DNA of 64,000 bases from Peristeroidobacter agariperforans. Its GTDB lineage: Bacteria; Pseudomonadota; Gammaproteobacteria; Steroidobacterales; Steroidobacteraceae. Positions 6,625 to 32,882 of the stretch are shown here, in pieces. The stretch spans positions 186,001 through 250,000 of the forward strand of contig NZ_RYFW01000003.1 of assembly GCF_004138335.1 (NCBI RefSeq). Direction: 5' to 3'. A program made the translations under genes and the position numbers. Within the stretch, counting starts at the first letter, position 1. Each line of letters opens with the position of its first letter. The notes under the pieces were generated by a model that had not been told where the DNA came from, ran no database searches, and worked only from the letters and a program-made list of their open reading frames with translations.

Positions 6625-8664
6625 ATGAGCGCAGCGGCGAAAGCGACGGCACTGGCAGCATCGATCGGACTGGCGGGCTGCAGCGCCGGATCGAGCTCGA
6701 GCGGGCAGCCGCTGGACACCGATTATTCCGACCTGCGACTTGCGACATCGACCGACGGAGGTCTGCAGTATGCGACAAAGGACGGCAGCGTCCTGGGCGC
6801 CTTGCGCAATGGTATTCGGATGTCCCTGGCCGGCGCGCCGGAGATCGATATCGTCGGCGGACCCGCGGCAGTCGGCGGACGCGACGGCGGCTATTCCCGA
6901 ACCACCGTCCAGGTGGCAGGGGTGGATGAGGCAGATCTCGTCAAATACGACGGCGAGCACGTGTACGCCGTCATCCCCAAACCTGTGCAATCCGCAGGCG
7001 CGACGCCCGCGGGATTGATACGCAACGTCCTGAAAGTTGTCAGCACGGATCCGACGACCGCCGGCACGCAAGTCGTTTCCGAGTTCACCCTGGCGGGAGA
7101 GCACAGCTCCCTGCCGCTGTTGTATCAAGTGCAATCTGCCAGCGGCGCCACCGAATACCTCGCCGCCGTGAGCCAGGACTATCGGGCCTGGTTGCAAGCC
7201 CAGCCGGTGATCGACGCGCTCGCAATCCAGCCGGATCGCACCATCGTGCAATTTCTCGACGTGCGCGATCCGTCGAACGTGTCGCAAGCATGGCAGATCG
7301 AGCTGGACGGTTGGCTGCGCGGCAGTCGGAAGATCGGCAATACGCTCTACCTCGTCAGCAGCTATCGGCCGCGACTGGCGGGTTTGGTGCTGCCGGCGGA
7401 CACGCTTGAAACCAAGCGGGCGAACGAGCGGCGCATCCGCGAGGCGAGCGCAGCAGATCTGTTGCCCGGTTACAGCATCAACGGCGGGGCCGAGTTGCCG
7501 CTCGTCACGCCACGCGACTGCGTGTTGCCGGCCAATTTGTCGTCCGCGGACGCATATGCCGACCTGCTGGTCATCACCGCCCTCGACTTGAACGAGCGGC
7601 GTGTGACCGATGTCAACTGCGTCGGCACCAACGTCAACGGCATCTACGTTTCACTCGACAGTCTGTATGTGGGCGGCGAAGGCGTCGCTGCCGACGGCGC
7701 GCCCATGACTGTGTTACACAAGTTCGGACTGAACCGGGGCGATATCACCTATCGCGCGAGCGGCGCGGTCAGCGGCAGGATTGGTTGGACGAATGCTGCC
7801 TACTTCATGGATGAGTACCGGGGCGATCTGCGTATCGTCACGAGCCGCGCCGACGTGCACGGCCTGTCGGTGCTGCGCGAAACGCCGGATCGACGACTGG
7901 TCGCGATGGCCAAGCTGCCGAACACGCAGCATCCGCAGCCGATCGGCAAACCAGGCGAGCAGGTGCACGCCGTGCGTTTCTTTGGCGAGCGCGCGTACGT
8001 CGTGACGGCCAGACTGACCGACCCGCTCTATGTTATCGACTTGAGCAACCCGGTGGAGCCGTTCATTGCCGGCGAGCTCGAAATTCCCGGCGTGTCGACC
8101 TATCTGCAGCCCATCGTCGGACCCGCGGGCATCGAACTGTTGCTGTCCGTCGGCCGAGAGCTCAACGCGCAGGGCACTCGCACTGGCATCAAGGTCGAGC
8201 TTTTCGACGTAAGTGACATCGCCGAGCCGCGCTCGCTGGGTGTGCAGGTGTTCGGACAAATCGGCTCCTCGAGCGATGCAACCGACGATCCGCACGCGCT
8301 TACGCTGTTGCCGGTCGAGCAAACGAACGGCTACCGGATGGCACTGCCGATCAACGTGTTCGATACGCCGTCGTATGACGGCCGGTTCAGCTGGACATAC
8401 AGCGCAGTACACTTGCTGGAAATTGATGACGTGGGAGGCGCAACACCCCACTTGCGTCTGGCAGGCGTGATCAAAACGGCAGGGCCCGACAGCTCCAATC
8501 CTTATCCGCAATACTGGGTGCCGAATCGAACCGTGCTCCACGACGAGAGCGTGTTCGTCGTGAACGGCGACAGTCTCATGGGCCGCTTGTGGAGTCAGGT
8601 CGCGCCGCCGCAGGCCGTCGATAGCCTGTTTGCCGTGCCCAGAGTGCACGGGGTCCGATTGTGA
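6625..8664 (+). CDS. beta-propeller domain lipoprotein (PF09826-type)
   Basis: A 679-residue exported protein. The N-terminus has a lipoprotein signal with lipobox GLAGC (Cys at about residue 19), then a Ser/Gly linker. The signature VQVAGVDEADLVKYDG (about residues 92-107) marks secreted archaeal/bacterial beta-propeller proteins of the Beta_propel family. Repeated motifs with V-x-D-(L/V)-S-(N/D)-P (LDVRDPSN, IDLSNPVEP, FDVSDIAEP) mark successive blades, and DDPHALTLLP closes the propeller. It probably faces the periplasm. No catalytic residues are known for the family and the role is unknown. It is monocistronic, divergent from the MipA operon. Confidence 0.8.
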   Translation: MSAAAKATALAASIGLAGCSAGSSSSGQPLDTDYSDLRLATSTDGGLQYATKDGSVLGALRNGIRMSLAGAPEIDIVGGPAAVGGRDGGYSRTTVQVAGVDEADLVKYDGEHVYAVIPKPVQSAGATPAGLIRNVLKVVSTDPTTAGTQVVSEFTLAGEHSSLPLLYQVQSASGATEYLAAVSQDYRAWLQAQPVIDALAIQPDRTIVQFLDVRDPSNVSQAWQIELDGWLRGSRKIGNTLYLVSSYRPRLAGLVLPADTLETKRANERRIREASAADLLPGYSINGGAELPLVTPRDCVLPANLSSADAYADLLVITALDLNERRVTDVNCVGTNVNGIYVSLDSLYVGGEGVAADGAPMTVLHKFGLNRGDITYRASGAVSGRIGWTNAAYFMDEYRGDLRIVTSRADVHGLSVLRETPDRRLVAMAKLPNTQHPQPIGKPGEQVHAVRFFGERAYVVTARLTDPLYVIDLSNPVEPFIAGELEIPGVSTYLQPIVGPAGIELLLSVGRELNAQGTRTGIKVELFDVSDIAEPRSLGVQVFGQIGSSSDATDDPHALTLLPVEQTNGYRMALPINVFDTPSYDGRFSWTYSAVHLLEIDDVGGATPHLRLAGVIKTAGPDSSNPYPQYWVPNRTVLHDESVFVVNGDSLMGRLWSQVAPPQAVDSLFAVPRVHGVRL

Positions 8665-23793: not shown

Positions 23794-24264
23794 ATGGCCA
23801 GGTTGACCATCAACGGAACCGTTCGCGACATCGATGTAGACCCGAATACACCGTTGCTGTGGGTGCTGCGGGAGCAGGCGGGCCTGACGGGCTCGAAGTA
23901 CGGCTGCGGCGTGGCCCAATGCGGCGCCTGTACCGTACACATCGACGGCAATCCGGTGCGCTCATGTGTCCTTCCTGTCAGCGCGCTGTCAGCTGAGCAA
24001 CAGATTACGACCATCGAAGGGCTGTCCAAGGACGGTTCGCATCCGCTGCAACGGGCCTGGCTGAAGCTCGACGTGCCCCAGTGCGGTTATTGCCAGTCAG
24101 GCATGATCATGGCGGCCGCCGGGTTGCTGAAGAAGAACCCCAAGCCGAGCGATGCCGACATCGACGCCGAGATCACCAACATTTGCCGGTGCGGAACCTA
24201 CAACCGCGTGCGCGAAGCCATCAAGCTCGCCGCGTCGGGTCTGCCGGCCAAGCAGAGCACGTGA
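23794..24264 (+). CDS. (2Fe-2S)-binding subunit of molybdenum hydroxylase
   Basis: Start ATG 23794 follows CAGGAGAG. The 156-residue product has the plant-type ferredoxin cluster motif [17 protein letters not shown] (about residues 39-55, with a fourth Cys in VRSCVLP) and the C-terminal helical cluster motif QCGYCQSGM with CRCGTYNRV. This two-cluster small subunit is shared by xanthine oxidase-family enzymes such as isoquinoline 1-oxidoreductase and some aldehyde dehydrogenases. It passes electrons from the Mo site of the next gene product, here presumably to the c-type cytochrome encoded downstream. First gene of a long coupled operon. Confidence 0.92.
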
Positions 24265-24274
24265 GGGAAACACC

Positions 24275-26440
24275 ATGAGCATGGCAACGCAGGTTTCTCG
24301 CCGTAGTTTTCTGATCGGGTCCGCCTCCGCCATCGGCGGTTTGTCGCTGGGCTTTCACGTGCCGTTCGCCGAAGCGGCGGCCGCCAAGAATGCGGCCGAA
24401 GTCAATGCATGGGTCGTCATCCAGCCCGACGACCAGGTCATCATCCGCATCGCCCGTTCCGAGATGGGCCAGGGCACGCTCACGGGTCTGGCGCAGCTGG
24501 TCGCCGAGGAGCTCGAATGCGATTGGGCCAAGGTGACCACGGAATATCCGACACCGGGCCAAAATCTTGCGCGCGATCGGGTGTGGGGAAATTTTTCCAC
24601 CGGCGGCAGCCGAGGCATTCGCGAGTCGCACGAGTACGTGCGCAAGGGTGGCGCCACGGCACGCGAGATGTTGATCACCGCTGCGGCTAACGAGTGGAAG
24701 GTCCCGCCAAGCGAATGCGTTGCCGCTAACAGCGTCATCACGCATCAACCGAGCGGTCGCAAGGTCAGTTTCGGCAAAGTCGCGACGGCCGCTGCCAAAG
24801 TCACGCCGCCCAAAGAGGTGACGCTGAAGGATCCGAAGAATTGGAAGATCGCGGGCAAGCCGCTCGCGCGTCTGGACACGGCGGACAAGCTCACCGGCAA
24901 ACAGATCTATGGTACCGATCTGAAGCTGCCGGGCATGTTGAACGCGACGGTGCGTGCGTGCCCTTACTTCGGCGGCAAGGTGAAGAGCTTCGACGCGTCG
25001 TCTGTCAGCAAAATGCCGGGCGTGCGCAAGGTGATGCAGATCGACGATACGACGCTCGCCGTGGTCGCCGACACCTGGTGGCAAGCAAAGACCGCGATGG
25101 ATGCGCTGACCATTGTGTGGGATGAAGGTCCCAACACAGCCGTATCGAGCGAGTCCATCGCGGAAATGCTCAAAGGCGGCCTCGATGCAAAAGACGCCTT
25201 CGTGCAAACCACCGTGGGCGATGCGCCGGGCGCGCTGACCGGAGCGAAGAAGACGATCTCGGCCGTCTACGCTTATCCCTATCAGAACCACGCCACGATG
25301 GAGCCGATGAACGCCACCGCGCGCTATACGCCCCAGAAATGCGAAGTGTGGGTGCCGACGCAAAACGGCGAGGCGAGCCTGGCTGCAGCGGCGGAGGCTG
25401 CGGGCTTGCCGGTGCAACAGTGCGAAGTTTACAAACTGCATCTGGGTGGCGGCTTCGGCCGGCGCGGCAACTTCCAGGACTACGTGCGCCAGTCGGTGCT
25501 GATCGCCAAGCAGATGCCGGGCACACCGATCAAGATGATCTGGACGCGCGAAGAGGACATGCTGCACGGGGCTTATCACCCGACCACACAGTGCAAGCTC
25601 ACGGCTGCGTTGGATGACGACGGCAATGTGACGGCCATGCACATGCGCATTTCCGGCCAGTCGATTCTGGCGGCGGTGCGCCCCGAAGGCATGCAGGGCG
25701 GTAAAGATCCGGCCGTGTTTCAGGGCTTGAACCTGACGGGCGATGAAGGACACATCGGCTACACCATTCCGAATCTGCTGATCGATCACGCCATGCGCAA
25801 CCCGCCGGTGCCGCCCGGTTTCTGGCGCGGCGTGAATCTGAACCAGAACGCGTTCTACCTGGAATCTTTCATCGAAGAGCTCGCGCACGCCGCCGGCGTC
25901 GATCCGCTCGCGTTTCGTCGCAAGCTGCTCAAGAACCATCCGAAACATCTCGCGGCGCTGGAAGCTGCGGCGAAAGGCATTGGTTGGGACACGCCGGCGC
26001 CCAAGGGCGTGGGACGTGGACTGGCTCAGATCATGGGCTTCGGCAGCTATGTAGCCGCGGCCGCGGAGGTGTCTGTCACCGACGGTCAGATGAAGATTCA
26101 TCGCATCGTTGCGGCGACCGACGCCGGCCACGTGGTCAATCCGGCGCAGGTGGAGCGCCAGGTCGAAGGTTCCTTCGTCTATGGACTCTCGGCTGCGCTG
26201 TTCGGTGAGTGCACGATGCAGGGCGGTCGCATGGTGGAGGACAATTTCCACACGTATCAGGTGATGCGCATGGCCGAGATGCCGAAGGTGGACACTCACA
26301 TCGTGCCCTCGGGCGGATTCTGGGGCGGCGTCGGCGAACCGACGATTGCAGTCGCAGCGCCAGCAGTCATGAATGCATTGTTCGCGGCCACGGGCAAGCG
26401 CATTCGGACCTTGCCGCTGAAGAAACAAAGCCTGGCATGA
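24275..26440 (+). CDS. molybdopterin-binding subunit, IorB-like molybdenum hydroxylase
   Basis: From ATG 24275 (GAGGGAAACACC upstream), a 721-residue protein with a Tat signal (SRRSFLIGSASAIGG), so exported folded to the periplasm. It carries xanthine-dehydrogenase-family Mo-pterin motifs: GQGTLTGLAQLVAEEL, LHLGGGFGRRG, PPVPPGFWRG, and near the C-terminus GGVGEPTIAVAAPAV with the catalytic glutamate. The single-subunit layout without an FAD domain places it with IorB/aldehyde dehydrogenase beta subunits. It likely hydroxylates an aldehyde or N-heterocycle. Its stop overlaps the next start (ATGA), tying it to the sulfur genes; why is unclear. Confidence 0.9.
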   Translation: MSMATQVSRRSFLIGSASAIGGLSLGFHVPFAEAAAAKNAAEVNAWVVIQPDDQVIIRIARSEMGQGTLTGLAQLVAEELECDWAKVTTEYPTPGQNLARDRVWGNFSTGGSRGIRESHEYVRKGGATAREMLITAAANEWKVPPSECVAANSVITHQPSGRKVSFGKVATAAAKVTPPKEVTLKDPKNWKIAGKPLARLDTADKLTGKQIYGTDLKLPGMLNATVRACPYFGGKVKSFDASSVSKMPGVRKVMQIDDTTLAVVADTWWQAKTAMDALTIVWDEGPNTAVSSESIAEMLKGGLDAKDAFVQTTVGDAPGALTGAKKTISAVYAYPYQNHATMEPMNATARYTPQKCEVWVPTQNGEASLAAAAEAAGLPVQQCEVYKLHLGGGFGRRGNFQDYVRQSVLIAKQMPGTPIKMIWTREEDMLHGAYHPTTQCKLTAALDDDGNVTAMHMRISGQSILAAVRPEGMQGGKDPAVFQGLNLTGDEGHIGYTIPNLLIDHAMRNPPVPPGFWRGVNLNQNAFYLESFIEELAHAAGVDPLAFRRKLLKNHPKHLAALEAAAKGIGWDTPAPKGVGRGLAQIMGFGSYVAAAAEVSVTDGQMKIHRIVAATDAGHVVNPAQVERQVEGSFVYGLSAALFGECTMQGGRMVEDNFHTYQVMRMAEMPKVDTHIVPSGGFWGGVGEPTIAVAAPAVMNALFAATGKRIRTLPLKKQSLA

Positions 26441-26730
26441 GTCGCCTGCTGTACACGCTCGTCGCGACGACACTGGTCGTCGCGCCGGGTTTGACATGGG
26501 CAGCATCGCCGCCGGGCGCTGCGTCGTGCCTCGGATGTCACACCGTCGCGGCCGAAGGCGGCCCGGTGCCGGCGCTCGGCAGCTTTACGGCGGAGCAGAT
26601 GGTCACGGCGATGCAGGCGTTTCGTTCGGGTTCGCGCCCAGCCACTGTGATGAATCGCATCGCCAAGGGTTTTTCGGATGAAGAGATCAAAGCCATTGCC
26701 GACTGGTATGCGCGCTCGAAATCAAAGTAG
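26437..26730 (+). CDS. fccA: monoheme cytochrome c, flavocytochrome c sulfide dehydrogenase subunit-like
   Basis: A 97-residue exported cytochrome: signal peptide LLYTLVATTLVVAPGLTWA, heme site CLGCH (about residues 31-35), and the C-terminal pattern MQAFRSGSRPATVMNRIAKGFSDEEIKAIADWYA, whose Met would be the distal ligand. The pattern is characteristic of FccA/SoxE-type single-heme subunits. It overlaps the Mo subunit by 4 bp and the flavoprotein gene by 23 bp, so it could accept electrons from either enzyme. The gene symbol rests on the downstream FccB-like gene. Confidence 0.82.
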   Translation: MSRLLYTLVATTLVVAPGLTWAASPPGAASCLGCHTVAAEGGPVPALGSFTAEQMVTAMQAFRSGSRPATVMNRIAKGFSDEEIKAIADWYARSKSK

Positions 26731-27997
26731 TCGGCGCGCTGTTCTCGGCGGCATGGCCGCCGGGGGTGTGCTTGCTGCCTTCGGAATTCCTGCGGCTCGG
26801 GCGGCGACGAAAGCAGCGCCGCGGGTCGTGGTCATCGGCGGTGGATTCGGTGGGGCAAGTTGCGCTCGCTTGATCAAGGGCGAAGATCGAGACATCACGG
26901 TCACGCTCGTCGAAGCAAACTCGACCTACATCGCCTGTCCCTTCAGCAACGCGGTGATCGCCGGGCTGCGGCCACTGGAGCAGCAGAAGTTTGGTTATGA
27001 CCGTGTGCGCGCCGCGGGCATCGAGGTGATTCATCGCAAGGTGACCGCGGTCGATACCAAGCAGCGCACCGTGCGCCTGGATGATGGCAAGCAGCTTGCT
27101 TACGATCGCCTGGTCGTGGCCCCGGGCGTGGAGCTGCGATTCGATGCAATTCCTGGTTACAACGAAGCTGCAGCGGAAGTCCTGCCGCACGCATGGAAGG
27201 CGGGCGAGCAGACCTTGTTGTTACGTCGTCAACTAGAAGCCATGAAAGATGGCGGCGTGGTCGTGATGTCCGCGCCTGCGAATCCGTTCCGCTGTCCGCC
27301 CGGGCCGTACGAGCGTGCCAGCCTCATTGCTCATTATCTCAAGACTCACAAGCCGCGTTCCAAGCTGATCCTGCTCGATGCCAAGGACGCTTTCTCCAAG
27401 CAGAAGCTGTTCGAGGCGGCGTGGCGGGAGCTTTATCCTGGAATGATCGAGTGGGTATCGTTGTCCTCCGGCGGCAATGTCACTCGCATCGAGACTGACA
27501 CGCGCACGTTCGTTACGGAGTTCGGCAGTCATGTTGCCGACGTGGGCAATGTCATACCTCCGCAGCGTGCTGCAGCGGTCGCGGCGCTCGCGGGTGTTGC
27601 CGATCAGACGGGCTGGTGTCCGGTCGATCCAGTGTCGTTCGAATCGACGCTGCAGCCGGGCGTTCATGTGATCGGCGATGCCATCATCGCGGGCGGCATG
27701 CCCAAGTCAGCGTTCTCCGCCAATTCGCAGGCGCGCGTTTGTGCCACCGCCGTGGTCGATTTGCTGCGCGAGCGGAAGCCGGCATCGCCCAAGCTCATCA
27801 ATACCTGTTACAGCCTGGTCGCGCCGGACTATGGAATCTCGGTCGCCGGGGTCTACCAGCCTGCCAATGGTTTGCTCACCGATGTGCCGGGCGCGGGCGG
27901 CGTCAGTGCGCTCGACGCACCCAAGTCGATGCGGGCACAGGAAGCGACCTACGCAGAGGCATGGTTCAAGACCATCACTCACGGCGTCTTCGGATGA
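26708..27997 (+). CDS. fccB: flavocytochrome c sulfide dehydrogenase flavoprotein subunit (SoxF-like)
   Basis: Start ATG 26708 within the cytochrome gene gives 429 residues with a Tat-type leader (SSRRAVLGGMAAGG). An FAD-binding Rossmann motif VVVIGGGFGGASCARL follows. Redox-active cysteines lie in YIACPFSNAVIAGLR and INTCYSLVAPDYGISV, positions matching the disulfide of FCSD that takes up sulfide sulfur. VHVIGDAIIAGGMPKSAFSAN binds the FAD tail. It would oxidise sulfide to sulfur or polysulfide in the periplasm, passing electrons to the adjacent cytochrome. An alternative start at 26678 would overlap more and lacks the leader position. Confidence 0.9.
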   Translation: MRARNQSSRRAVLGGMAAGGVLAAFGIPAARAATKAAPRVVVIGGGFGGASCARLIKGEDRDITVTLVEANSTYIACPFSNAVIAGLRPLEQQKFGYDRVRAAGIEVIHRKVTAVDTKQRTVRLDDGKQLAYDRLVVAPGVELRFDAIPGYNEAAAEVLPHAWKAGEQTLLLRRQLEAMKDGGVVVMSAPANPFRCPPGPYERASLIAHYLKTHKPRSKLILLDAKDAFSKQKLFEAAWRELYPGMIEWVSLSSGGNVTRIETDTRTFVTEFGSHVADVGNVIPPQRAAAVAALAGVADQTGWCPVDPVSFESTLQPGVHVIGDAIIAGGMPKSAFSANSQARVCATAVVDLLRERKPASPKLINTCYSLVAPDYGISVAGVYQPANGLLTDVPGAGGVSALDAPKSMRAQEATYAEAWFKTITHGVFG

Positions 27998-28004
27998 AAG
28001 CTGG

Positions 28005-28460
28005 ATGAAGTGGCTAGTGTGGGCACTGTTCGCATCGGCGTCAGTGGCGTCGGCCACTCCGCCAGTGCAGAGCGTGAGTCCCTATGCCGTGGTCGGCGAT
28101 GCCATCGAGAAGTCGCTCACAGGGCAGGCAGGCGACCCGAGCCGAGGCGCCGAGTTGATTCAGCAGCGGCACAAGAGCCTGTGTGTGTTGTGCCATTCCG
28201 GCCCGTTTCCCGACCCACATCTGCAAGGGACGCTTGCGCCGGACCTGACCGGCATCGGCGAGCGACTGTCCGCGGGGCAGCTGCGATTGCGCATCGTCGA
28301 TATGAAGCGCTTGAAGCCCGACAGCATCATGCCGACCTACTACGGCATCGTCACGAACGGCAAGGACACGCGCATCGCCGAGGGTTGGCGCGACAAGCCT
28401 GTCCTCACGGCCGAGGAGATTGAGGATTTGGTGGCGTATCTGCGGACCTTGCGGCCATGA
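28005..28460 (+). CDS. soxX: SoxX, thiosulfate-oxidising cytochrome c subunit
   Basis: A 151-residue exported monoheme cytochrome: signal WLVWALFASASVASA, heme site LCVLCHSGPF, and distal Met in DSIMPTYYG. TAEEIEDLVAYLRTL closes the fold. SoxX pairs with SoxA as the periplasmic heterodimer that oxidatively joins thiosulfate to the SoxY cysteine arm. It starts 7 bp after the flavoprotein gene and its stop overlaps soxY (ATGA). Length and motifs agree with standard SoxX. Confidence 0.9.
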   Translation: MKWLVWALFASASVASATPPVQSVSPYAVVGDAIEKSLTGQAGDPSRGAELIQQRHKSLCVLCHSGPFPDPHLQGTLAPDLTGIGERLSAGQLRLRIVDMKRLKPDSIMPTYYGIVTNGKDTRIAEGWRDKPVLTAEEIEDLVAYLRTLRP

Positions 28461-28846
28461 AGATTTCCCGGCCCTCCCTTGAAGAAGCGATCGACTCGTT
28501 CACGGGTGGCGCCAGCGTGCGCGAAGGTCGCGTCAAGTTCGAGATCTCGCCGTTGGTGGAGAATGGCAACGCGGTGCCGGTGAGTGTCGAAGTCGAGAGC
28601 CCGATGACCGCTGCCGATCACGTGAAGCGCATCGCGCTGTTCAACGAGAGGAACCCGCAGGCCGACGTGGTTGTGTTTCACCTTGGTCCACGCAGCGGTC
28701 GGGCCCGGGTGTCGACTCGCATTCGCCTGGCGGCTTCGCAGACCGTGGTCGCACTGGCCGAGACCAGCGACGGGGCTTTCTGGTCTGCTCGAGCCAAAGT
28801 GATCGTGACGCTCGCGGCCTGCATCGAGGACATCTCCCAGCAATGA
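28457..28846 (+). CDS. soxY: SoxY-like sulfur carrier without export signal or GGCGG tail
   Basis: A 129-residue SoxY-fold protein. The core strand pattern is recognisable (ENGNAVPVSVEVES, DHVKRIALFNERNPQAD, FWSARAKVIVTL). Two family hallmarks are missing. First, there is no Tat or Sec leader: the protein starts at ATG 28457 with MKISRPSLEEAIDSF, and an in-frame TGA at 28421 rules out a longer start. Second, the usual C-terminal GGCGG arm is replaced by AACIEDISQQ, leaving one cysteine (Cys122), which is seven residues from the end. It may still carry sulfur on Cys122, but the location is doubtful. Overlaps soxX and soxZ by 4 bp each. Confidence 0.82.
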   Translation: MKISRPSLEEAIDSFTGGASVREGRVKFEISPLVENGNAVPVSVEVESPMTAADHVKRIALFNERNPQADVVVFHLGPRSGRARVSTRIRLAASQTVVALAETSDGAFWSARAKVIVTLAACIEDISQQ

Positions 28847-29163
28847 CACGCGCGCTCGTCAACGTGCCGAAGACTGCCAAACGCGGCGAGATCATCGAGA
28901 TCCGCGCGATGATTCAACACGTCATGGAAACCGGATATCGAGAGGGGCCGAACGGCGTCACGCTGCCACGTAACATCATCAAACGATTCGTTTGCAAATA
29001 CGGTGCGCAAGAAATCTTCTCCGCCGAGTTGTTCCCTGCGATCGCTGCCAATCCCTACATGGCCTTCAGCACGGTTGCGACCGAGACCGGCACGCTCACG
29101 TTCGAGTGGACCGATGACAAGGGCGAGACGCAGAGCGCTTCCGCCGAGATCACGGTGACGTGA
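28843..29163 (+). CDS. soxZ: SoxZ, sulfur-carrier partner protein
   Basis: A 106-residue immunoglobulin-like protein without a signal peptide, as is normal for SoxZ. Typical segments are EIIEIRAMIQHVMETGYRE, RNIIKRFVCKYGAQEIFSAEL and a closing GTLTFEWTDDKGE. SoxZ binds SoxY and in known systems is exported together with it by the Tat signal of SoxY. Here SoxY also lacks a signal, so the SoxYZ pair has no visible export route. Start ATG 28843 overlaps the soxY stop; its stop shares bases with the soxA start (TGATG). Confidence 0.9.
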   Translation: MTRALVNVPKTAKRGEIIEIRAMIQHVMETGYREGPNGVTLPRNIIKRFVCKYGAQEIFSAELFPAIAANPYMAFSTVATETGTLTFEWTDDKGETQSASAEITVT

Positions 29164-29933
29164 TGATTCGGCTCGTACTGTTGAGCCTGCTTGCTTGCGC
29201 GTCGATCGGCGTCGCGGCGGAGATCCCGCCGCAGGACCGGCGTTCCGGGTTCGAATTCATGTCGCCGCAGACGCAGGCGATGCAGTCGGAGGAGACCAGC
29301 AATCCCGGCATGCTGTGGGTCGCCGACGGCGAGCGCCTGTTTGGCGAGCCGCAGGGTTCTGCCGACAAATCATGTGCAAGCTGTCATGCCGAAGCGCCGA
29401 AGAGCATGCGCGGGGTTGCGGCTCGATATCCCACGTTCGACGAGGAGACCAAGCGTCCGATCGATCTGATGGGTCGCATCAATCAATGCCGCGTGAAGCG
29501 TCAAGGTGCAGCGTCGCTCGCCTATCAAAGCGATGAACTGCTGGCACTCGCGGCCTACGTTGCCTACCAGTCCCATGGCATGCCGATCGCGCCACCTGCG
29601 GATTCTCGACTGCAGCCGTTTCGCGAGAACGGTCGAGCCTGGTACGAGCAGCGCTTGGGTCAACTGCAACTCTCGTGCGCTGCCTGTCACGACGATCGCT
29701 GGGGCGCGCGCCTCGGCGGCAGCGTCATTCCTCAAGGCCATCCGACCGGCTATCCGCTGTATCGACTGGAATGGCAGAACATGGGCTCTCTGCAACGACG
29801 CTTGCGCGGCTGCCTGGTCGGCGTGCGCGCCCAGCCCTTCGACTTCGGTGCGCCCGAGTACGTGGACATCGAATTGTTTCTAATGGAGCGAGCCAAGGGG
29901 TTGAAGATGGAAACCCCGGCGGTGCGGCCGTAG
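29163..29933 (+). CDS. soxA: SoxA, diheme-type cytochrome c subunit
   Basis: A 256-residue exported protein (signal IRLVLLSLLACASIGVA). It has two heme-binding sites, CASCH and CAACH, and the cysteine ligands in GRINQCRV and RLRGCLVGVRAQPF. The latter corresponds to the active-site cysteine that becomes a cysteine persulfide in SoxAX. It therefore belongs to the diheme SoxA class. It probably forms the periplasmic SoxXA complex with the soxX product and is last in the operon. No soxB or soxCD follows; the next gene is on the opposite strand. Confidence 0.92.
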   Translation: MIRLVLLSLLACASIGVAAEIPPQDRRSGFEFMSPQTQAMQSEETSNPGMLWVADGERLFGEPQGSADKSCASCHAEAPKSMRGVAARYPTFDEETKRPIDLMGRINQCRVKRQGAASLAYQSDELLALAAYVAYQSHGMPIAPPADSRLQPFRENGRAWYEQRLGQLQLSCAACHDDRWGARLGGSVIPQGHPTGYPLYRLEWQNMGSLQRRLRGCLVGVRAQPFDFGAPEYVDIELFLMERAKGLKMETPAVRP

Positions 29934-31206: not shown

Positions 31207-32427
31207 CTATCGAAGTGCCGCGAGCCGGCGTCTTAGAAACTCGCGTTCCGCACTGTTCTCGCAGCGATCGATGGCATGCGTGTACGACACTGCCGCCTCG
31301 TCTTTGCGGCCGAGGCGTCGAAGAAGATCCGCGCGGATCGCGTGCAACAGGTAGAACCTGTGGAGGTTGTCGGCGAGGGTATCTACCAGTCGCAGCGCTG
31401 TCTGCGGTCCATCGACTTCCGCCACCGCGACAGCCCGGTTCAGGGCCACGACCGGAGTCGGCTGGATCGCCAGCAGTTGATCGTAGAGTCGAACGATCTG
31501 AGACCAGTCTGTTTCGGCGGTGCTCGCGGCAATCGAGTGTGCCGCGTTGATCGCCGCCTGTATCTGGTAGGGACCGGGCCGGTTGTGCCGCAAGCAGCGC
31601 TGGACGAGCTTCAGTCCTTCGGCAGTCAATGCGGGATCCCATTGACTGCGATCCTGATCCCGCAGTAACACCATCTGGCCGTCGCTGCTCACGCGGGCTG
31701 CGCGGCGAGCATCCGTCAACAGCATCAGCGCAAGCAGTCCTTGAACTTCTGCCTCATCGGGCAGCTCGCTCAACAGTACCCGGGTGAGTCGTATGGCTTC
31801 GGTGCACAGCTCGGCACGCGTGAGCTCAGTGCCGGAGGTCGCGGCGTAGCCTTCATTGAAGATGAGGTAGAGCACGGCGAGCACCGCGACCAGGCGGGCA
31901 GGGAGTTCGCTCGCTTCAGGTATTCGATACGGAATTCCCGCGTCGCGAATCTTGCCCTTCGCTCGCACCAGGCGCTGTGCCAGCGTGACTTCGGGAATGA
32001 GGAACGCCCTGGCGATTTCGGCGGTGGTCAAACCGCCAAGCAGCCGCAGTGTGAGCGCCACCTGTGCGCTCGTCGCGAGCGCCGGGTGGCAACAAGTGAA
32101 GATCAGCCGCAAGCGGTCGTCGTGCACGGTTTCGTCCTCGTCGAGCGACTCGTTCGTTTGCAGCAGCACCGCTTGCTCGTATCGATCGCGTCGCGAACTA
32201 TCCTTGCGCAGCCGGTCGATGGCGCGGTTGCGTGCGGTGGTGATGATCCATCCGACCGGGCTGGGAGGCGGCCCATCCTTGGGCCAGCGTTCGATCGCGG
32301 TGGTGAATGCGTCCTGCACGGCCTCTTCGGCAGTATCAATGTCGCCGAAAGAGCGCGTCAGCACCGCCACCGCACGCCCGTACTCCGCGCGAAAGATGTT
32401 GGCAATGTCTGCGTGCGAAAGCGACAT
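31207..32427 (-). CDS. ECF sigma factor with C-terminal TPR-like domain (DUF6596)
   Basis: From ATG 32427, a 406-residue protein. The N-terminal third is an ECF sigma factor: region 2 [22 protein letters not shown] and [21 protein letters not shown], region 4 [28 protein letters not shown]. The remaining 220 residues form the helical DUF6596 extension ([35 protein letters not shown]) typical of the ECF42 group. Such genes are usually paired with YCII/DGPF genes, as here: its ATG overlaps the YCII stop (TGATG). The extension is thought to take the place of an anti-sigma factor. Confidence 0.88.
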
Positions 32428-32777
32428 CAGCTGCCGTTGTGCTGAAACGGCCTCACTTCGATGGGCAAGGTGATCGCGCGCGCCAGTTTGCGGCCCCACT
32501 CGAGGGCTGCGTCGAGATCGGGCGCTTGAATGATGTCGAAGCCGCCGAGATGCTCCTTGCCCTCGATGTACGGCCCGTCCGTGGTCAGCATTTTGCCGTC
32601 CTTGAACGTCAGCACCGTCGCGGTCGACGCCGGGTAGAGGCCGCCGCCGAACACGAGTGCGCCGGCGGCCTTCATTTCGCGGATCACCTCGTTGACCTCG
32701 CGCATGATGGGTTCGAGAAACTCGGGCGGAGGCGGCGGGCCATCGGGCTGATAGATGCTCAATAAGTAGTGCTTCAC
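32427..32777 (-). CDS. YCII-related (DGPF domain) protein
   Basis: A 116-residue ferredoxin-like protein. GTG 32777 is chosen as start because GAGGACCAGGA lies upstream and the family begins K-(H/Y)-Y-L-L. Motifs are [40 protein letters not shown] and the closing IEVRPF. YCII/DGPF proteins are small, cytoplasmic and of unclear biochemical role; some are dehalogenase- or muconolactone isomerase-like. Genomic pairing with an ECF42 sigma factor, as seen here, is common and suggests a stress- or substrate-responsive unit. Confidence 0.85.
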
Positions 32778-32882
32778 TGTCCTGGTCCTCTGCGGTGAGC
32801 AGGCGATCCGATATCGCCTGGTCAGCCTATACGAACGACACTGGTCCGAATCGACACCCGTCCCGGGCACCGGGGGAAAATT

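Follow-up and report, generated by a model that had tools for sequence, protein, structure and literature searches.

In Sox systems SoxZ is usually leaderless and rides on SoxY for export. Carriers of this general type also occur outside the classical pathway: PMC12997753 describes a SoxYZ-like carrier, of the kind recognized by TIGR04557, that is tied to a periplasmic dehydrogenase of organic substrates. Bradyrhizobium diazoefficiens possesses two soxY genes, and according to PMC5748708 its thiosulfate oxidation needs only soxY1 of locus I. A separate family of carriers is named "SoxY-related AACIE arm protein" in NCBIfam (TIGR04487), and this name stands in the annotation of two plasmid records. 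No assigned function for AACIE carriers was found in the open-access literature. A SoxY survey dropped sequences without GGC as poor quality before tree building (PMC11237559), a filter by which the AACIE family would be dropped.

The window, by which we mean the whole stretch of 64,000 nucleotides analysed, encodes a SoxY of 129 amino acids that starts at ATG, ends in TLAACIEDISQQ (AACIEDISQQ) and contains a single cysteine, C122. An earlier note on this DNA had described the protein as leaderless, closed off upstream by an in-frame TGA and devoid of the GGCGG arm, and the ORF reading bears this out: only 11 in-frame codons (GFGGVSADLAA) lie between the TGA and the ATG. The soxX stop overlaps this ATG as ATGA. 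Two more genomes of the genus, S. agaridevorans (L033) and a third one (L003/L148), show this junction too, and their SoxY proteins are 96% and 78% identical to the window copy, respectively; AACIE soxY was found in 3 of 14 genomes of the Steroidobacter genus, the window's own counted. Fusion of SoxX to SoxY through a frameshift at the overlap was considered; no slippery run was seen there by eye.

The window SoxY is a member of TIGR04487 (198.5 bits; membership requires a score over the curated cut-off of 172 bits, and the leader is not part of the rule), the best-matching stretch beginning at profile position 29 of 146, past the leader. It failed the test for true SoxY, TIGR04488 (96.2 bits against a cut-off of 125, no GGCGG end). 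The test for the fused carrier, TIGR04557, was also failed, since the window proteins are two genes that reach 56.2 and 40.6 bits against a cut-off of 140. In most AACIE-type members the arm reads AC, one residue, then E or D, and the AACIED arm of the window is identical to that of the leader-bearing Inquilinus protein. An AlphaFold model of the 129 residues (pLDDT 85.6, 33 sequences) superposes on SoxY of P. pantotrophus (2oxg) with an rmsd of 1.5 over 115 columns, so that the mature fold has lost no large part.

Table 1. Features of the window around soxY; the leaders of the neighbours were judged by eye.
Feature	Position	Strand	Basis
2Fe-2S subunit, xanthine-oxidase family, no leader	23794..24264	+	Fer2, Fer2_2 over cut-off; adjoining in relatives
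Molybdopterin-binding hydroxylase subunit, Tat-type leader SRRSFLIG...	24275..26440	+	MoCoBD_1, MoCoBD_2 over cut-off
Small c-type cytochrome, Sec-type leader	26437..26730	+	Cytochrom_C 25.6 bits, cut-off 21.3
FCSD flavoprotein (FccB/SoxF type), Tat-type leader SRRAVLGG	26678..27997	+	FCSD_central, FCSD-flav_bind over cut-off
SoxX cytochrome c, Sec-type leader MKWLVWALFASASVASA	28005..28460	+	TIGR04485 70.3 bits, cut-off 61
In-frame TGA barring a longer SoxY	28421..28423	+	Frame reading
soxY, SoxY-related AACIE arm protein without leader	28457..28846	+	TIGR04487 over cut-off; carrier Cys122
SoxZ, no leader	28843..29163	+	TIGR04490 90.9 bits, cut-off 76
SoxA, Sec-type leader, two CxxCH motifs (CASCH, CAACH), RGCLVG	29160..29933	+	TIGR04484 231.8 bits, cut-off 110

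The window carries a set of eight genes (Table 1): a 2Fe-2S subunit, a Tat-type molybdenum hydroxylase, a cytochrome c, FCSD, SoxX, SoxY, SoxZ and SoxA. The earlier note overlooked two of these neighbours of SoxYZ, the molybdenum hydroxylase and FCSD, but its view that SoxX and SoxA look exported agrees with their Sec-type leaders. Two starts are possible for FCSD (26678 or 26708) and for SoxA (GTG 29160 or ATG 29163), and RGCLVG in SoxA is what we take to be the active-site motif. The molybdenum subunit has the marks of the xanthine oxidase family, namely MoCoBD domains, a 2Fe-2S partner and a retained GxGEP, the Glu of which is the catalytic residue. Its best solved relative is the large subunit of an aldehyde dehydrogenase (8gy3_C, 278.6 bits, aligned over positions 4-719 of 723). 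Further along the window, at 31207-32870 on the minus strand, an ECF-sigma-factor-like ORF adjoins a YCII-like ORF, both named by eye.

The missing leader sets the Steroidobacter copies apart from the rest of the family. A twin-arginine leader was present in 71 of 71 distinct AACIE-type copies outside Steroidobacter and in none of the three Steroidobacter copies. The 71 comprise 28 loci from one scan of genome contigs, 19 from a sample spread evenly over phyla (14 above the TIGR04487 cut-off and 5 just under), 22 new loci from an even class sample of 26 (21 over the cut-off, 4 repeats) and two plasmid copies. A locus is called AACIE-type when its arm, as read from the protein end, is not GGC; a fragment (L096) was excluded from the counts, and L050, which has no C-terminus, was assigned by context and left out of the conserved-column counts. 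RR stands upstream of the mature chain in all 71. The script rule for a leader (RR or KR followed, within 8 residues, by 12 uncharged residues) passed 64 of them as well as 34 of 34 GGC-type loci; the other seven (L056, L060, L068, L152, L156, L162 and L165) failed because a charged residue lies inside the stretch and were read as Tat leaders by eye. The earlier note had joined the arm and the lost leader into one oddity. Its separate observations hold, in that there is no leader, no GGCGG and the partners look exported, but this joining does not: the arm belongs to a named family whose other members carry twin-arginine leaders. The choice it offered between the cytoplasm and an unrecognized export route thus applies to Steroidobacter only and not to the AACIE family.

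In one scan the molybdenum hydroxylase accompanied 26 of 29 AACIE-type loci (L033 included) and none of 34 GGC-type loci (Fisher p 1e-14, with loci taken as independent of kinship; 7 of the 34 GGC-type loci are shorter than 12 kb), and it was present at all 19 loci of the phylum sample. At L054 the subunit lies downstream on the opposite strand. It was missing at L045 and L046, where contig ends are close upstream, and at L059. The last is an exception, an AACIE-type SoxXYZA group with an ACWD end (8001-8339) and no molybdenum subunit within 16 kb. FCSD was less constant, being present at 27 of 49 AACIE-type rows, rows with nearby contig ends included. In the careful tree, for which the program warns of long branches, 45 sox-linked molybdenum subunits split from 7 paralogs of Steroidobacter genomes at 100/100; the former were those of sufficient length and the latter the best-scoring of a larger number. 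A quicker tree, which contained one additional outgroup row, gave the same split. By both trees the sox-linked molybdenum hydroxylase is a clade of its own, and a dedicated one judging from its neighbours.

As for conserved neighbours beyond the eight genes, only lineage-specific groups (at most 5 loci) appeared among the best 18 ORF clusters over 50 loci; a TctC-like ORF, so named by eye, is among these clusters at 8 of the 50. AACIE carriers are present across Pseudomonadota and Rokubacteria. The set is complete at both plasmid loci; in L186 its molybdenum gene is split into two frame pieces. The plasmids are Methylobacterium pNMS14P1 (L185) and Neorhizobium pNgVX (L186), and one is typed conjugative, which fits the scattered spread of the set over classes. 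The set also occurs in metagenome bins titled Bordetella parapertussis (L056) and Klebsiella pneumoniae (L068), titles that look wrong.

The three leaderless copies group at 100/91 in the SoxY tree of 61 rows and nest with leader-bearing copies of Inquilinus limosus and a Kiloniellaceae bacterium at 99/92; the same five were grouped at 100/99 in the molybdenum subunit tree. In Inquilinus and the Kiloniellaceae bacterium soxX stops ahead of a separate soxY start and leader, whereas in Steroidobacter the soxX stop passes directly into the mature soxY. That a genus of Gammaproteobacteria groups with two rows from Alphaproteobacteria points to a transfer, after which the leader was lost once. By the SoxY tree the AACIE arm is old and the loss of the leader is derived, a single event in Steroidobacter.

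The leaderless gene has been maintained. The dN/dS ratios of soxY were 0.03 (window against L033) and 0.20 (window against L148), and those of the other genes in the same two comparisons were 0.04 and 0.07 for soxZ, 0.14 and 0.12 for soxA and 0.06 and 0.07 for FCSD; the soxY of a leader-bearing pair, L034-L035, gave 0.25. These values indicate that purifying selection is acting on leaderless soxY. The window broke 0 of 28 family-conserved columns in SoxY, 0 of 20 in SoxZ, 3 of 62 in SoxA and 2 of 28 in SoxX, a column counting as conserved when 90% or more of the other members keep it (68 for SoxY, 67 for SoxZ, SoxA and SoxX). SoxY of L148 broke one. Conserved columns of the contig scan are biased, its search patterns having come from the window SoxY, while the phylum and class samples are unbiased. 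Since the family-conserved columns lie mostly in the core of the fold, and none is broken in 23 of the 68 other SoxY either, their retention does not prove that the partners are the same.

Taken together, we regard the window SoxYZ as the carrier pair of a Sox variant that stands alone and has no SoxB, and in Steroidobacter the pair may reach the periplasm as Tat cargo; we hold this reading with a confidence just short of even. SoxXA would join a sulfur substrate to Cys122 of SoxY, as in classical Sox, and the AACIE-type arm would fit partners other than SoxB. FCSD and the molybdenum enzyme would then oxidize the product, whether still carried or already released, and hand the electrons to cytochrome c. 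In Steroidobacter the folded SoxYZ would cross the membrane as the leaderless cargo of a Tat partner of the same operon, either FCSD or the molybdenum subunit. The 2Fe-2S subunit, also without a leader, is likely exported together with the molybdenum subunit, on which it presumably rides, a parallel to the cargo idea for SoxYZ. The partners have kept their leaders and the carrier its conserved residues, which speaks for this cargo route, and the evidence from sequence leans slightly towards it. Such piggyback export is our tentative choice, at somewhat less than even confidence. Against it, free leaderless SoxYZ would remain cytoplasmic, and we know of no stable complex of SoxYZ with FCSD or with such a molybdenum enzyme. 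The fuller proposal is doubtful as a whole: a separate pathway free of SoxB and SoxCD, in which the molybdenum hydroxylase would act on substrate bound to or released from AACIE SoxYZ and in which piggyback export in Steroidobacter would reveal that SoxYZ is stably bound to FCSD or to the molybdenum enzyme. Also against our main reading stand L059 without the molybdenum enzyme, the presence of FCSD at only some of the rows, and a SoxC-family gene in the genome of the window and in G235.

It is nearly as likely that SoxYZ of Steroidobacter has become cytoplasmic and has taken a new role there, for example as a carrier of persulfide or sulfite, and that in the periplasm SoxXA, FCSD and the molybdenum enzyme manage without it. 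The leader is missing on both subunits in all three copies, purifying selection persists without it, and the overlap of the soxX stop with the soxY start has been retained. However, the window SoxY and SoxZ break no family-conserved column, the arm is that of the leader-bearing Inquilinus protein, the partners keep their leaders under similar constraint, and the ORF list shows no added gene among the eight.

It is rather improbable that the locus is an ordinary thiosulfate Sox system, truncated and with AACIE as a neutral change. SoxX, SoxZ and SoxA do pass the curated cut-offs set for their thiosulfate-type families, but SoxY falls below that of TIGR04488, and no SoxB over the cut-off was found in the three Steroidobacter genomes (best TIGR04486 match in the genome of the window 62.3 bits, cut-off 550; matches below the cut-off also occur in 10 of 14 control genomes). 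SoxB over the cut-off was present in 18 of 29 other genomes with an AACIE gene, and in 16 of the 18 a SoxY other than the AACIE copy is no more than 7 kb away from it; in the remaining two there is no SoxY on the SoxB contig. One further genome (G259) holds two SoxB pieces below the cut-off that may be one split gene. The dependence of B. diazoefficiens on soxY1 (PMC5748708) would also argue against a thiosulfate role if soxY2 is, as we infer, the AACIE copy. The genome of the window has one SoxY and one SoxZ, and the second, classical soxY for which the earlier note advised a check was not found by profile search of the genome. SoxCD does not accompany the carrier. The SoxC-family gene of this genome sits elsewhere and is over the cut-off (G000:C16, 537.8 bits); G235 has another, S. 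agaridevorans and Inquilinus have none over the cut-off, and the lack of one in S. agaridevorans means that the set does not depend on SoxC. Around the gene on G000:C16 (L187, 3100-5008) are cytochrome-c-like, ArsH-like and TonB-receptor-like ORFs, named by eye, and no SoxY.

Methanethiol oxidase (SBP56, PF05694) was considered as a source of aldehyde and sulfide and rejected. Of 26 AACIE-type genomes 8 had it over the cut-off, against none of 24 GGC-type genomes (Fisher p 0.004, with genomes taken as independent of kinship), but its failure to reach the cut-off in the other 18, one Steroidobacter among them, leaves at best a weak lead. A full-length gene is present in the genome of the window (G000:C13:234557-235924), in S. 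agaridevorans and in Inquilinus, and not in G235.

We consider it very unlikely that the loss of the leader broke the module and left SoxYZ mislocalized, useless and decaying. This would agree with the lack of SoxB over the cut-off and with the restriction of the gene to 3 of 14 genomes of the genus. However, the soxY ratios over three genomes lie below that of the leader-bearing pair, and the arm, the conserved columns and the modelled fold are intact, so that soxY is not decaying. A leader hidden by a sequencing error or a wrong start, the former raised in the earlier note, can be practically dismissed, because the ATGA junction is common to three genomes and the open upstream frames hold no hydrophobic stretch; in L033, where the frame is open over 65 codons, the script rule finds none either.

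The name of the AACIE family is already established. No description of the eight-gene set, of the link between this family and a molybdenum hydroxylase of its own, or of the Steroidobacter branch without leader was found in the open-access literature searched. Tying AACIE carriers to one dedicated molybdenum hydroxylase gives a testable pathway. The leader loss in Steroidobacter is a natural experiment, in which the destination of SoxYZ will either name the enzyme that holds it or show that a cytoplasmic Sox carrier is workable.

Among the closest known systems is the TIGR04487 family: its members resemble the window SoxY in mature domain, AACIE arm and score, and the two plasmid copies so annotated have the same neighbours, but the leader is missing in Steroidobacter. 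Classical SoxYZ, as in P. pantotrophus (TIGR04488), has the fold, the single carrier cysteine and the adjoining SoxXA genes in common with the window, which however lacks the GGCGG arm, the Tat leader and, in the set, SoxB and SoxCD, and has a molybdenum hydroxylase instead. The quinoprotein dehydrogenase-associated carrier (TIGR04557) is likewise of the SoxYZ type but is one fused chain tied to PQQ enzymes. The aldehyde dehydrogenase of the xanthine oxidase family (8gy3) aligns with the molybdenum subunit, GxGEP included, whereas the sox-linked subunit forms its own clade and occurs with SoxXA and SoxYZ genes.
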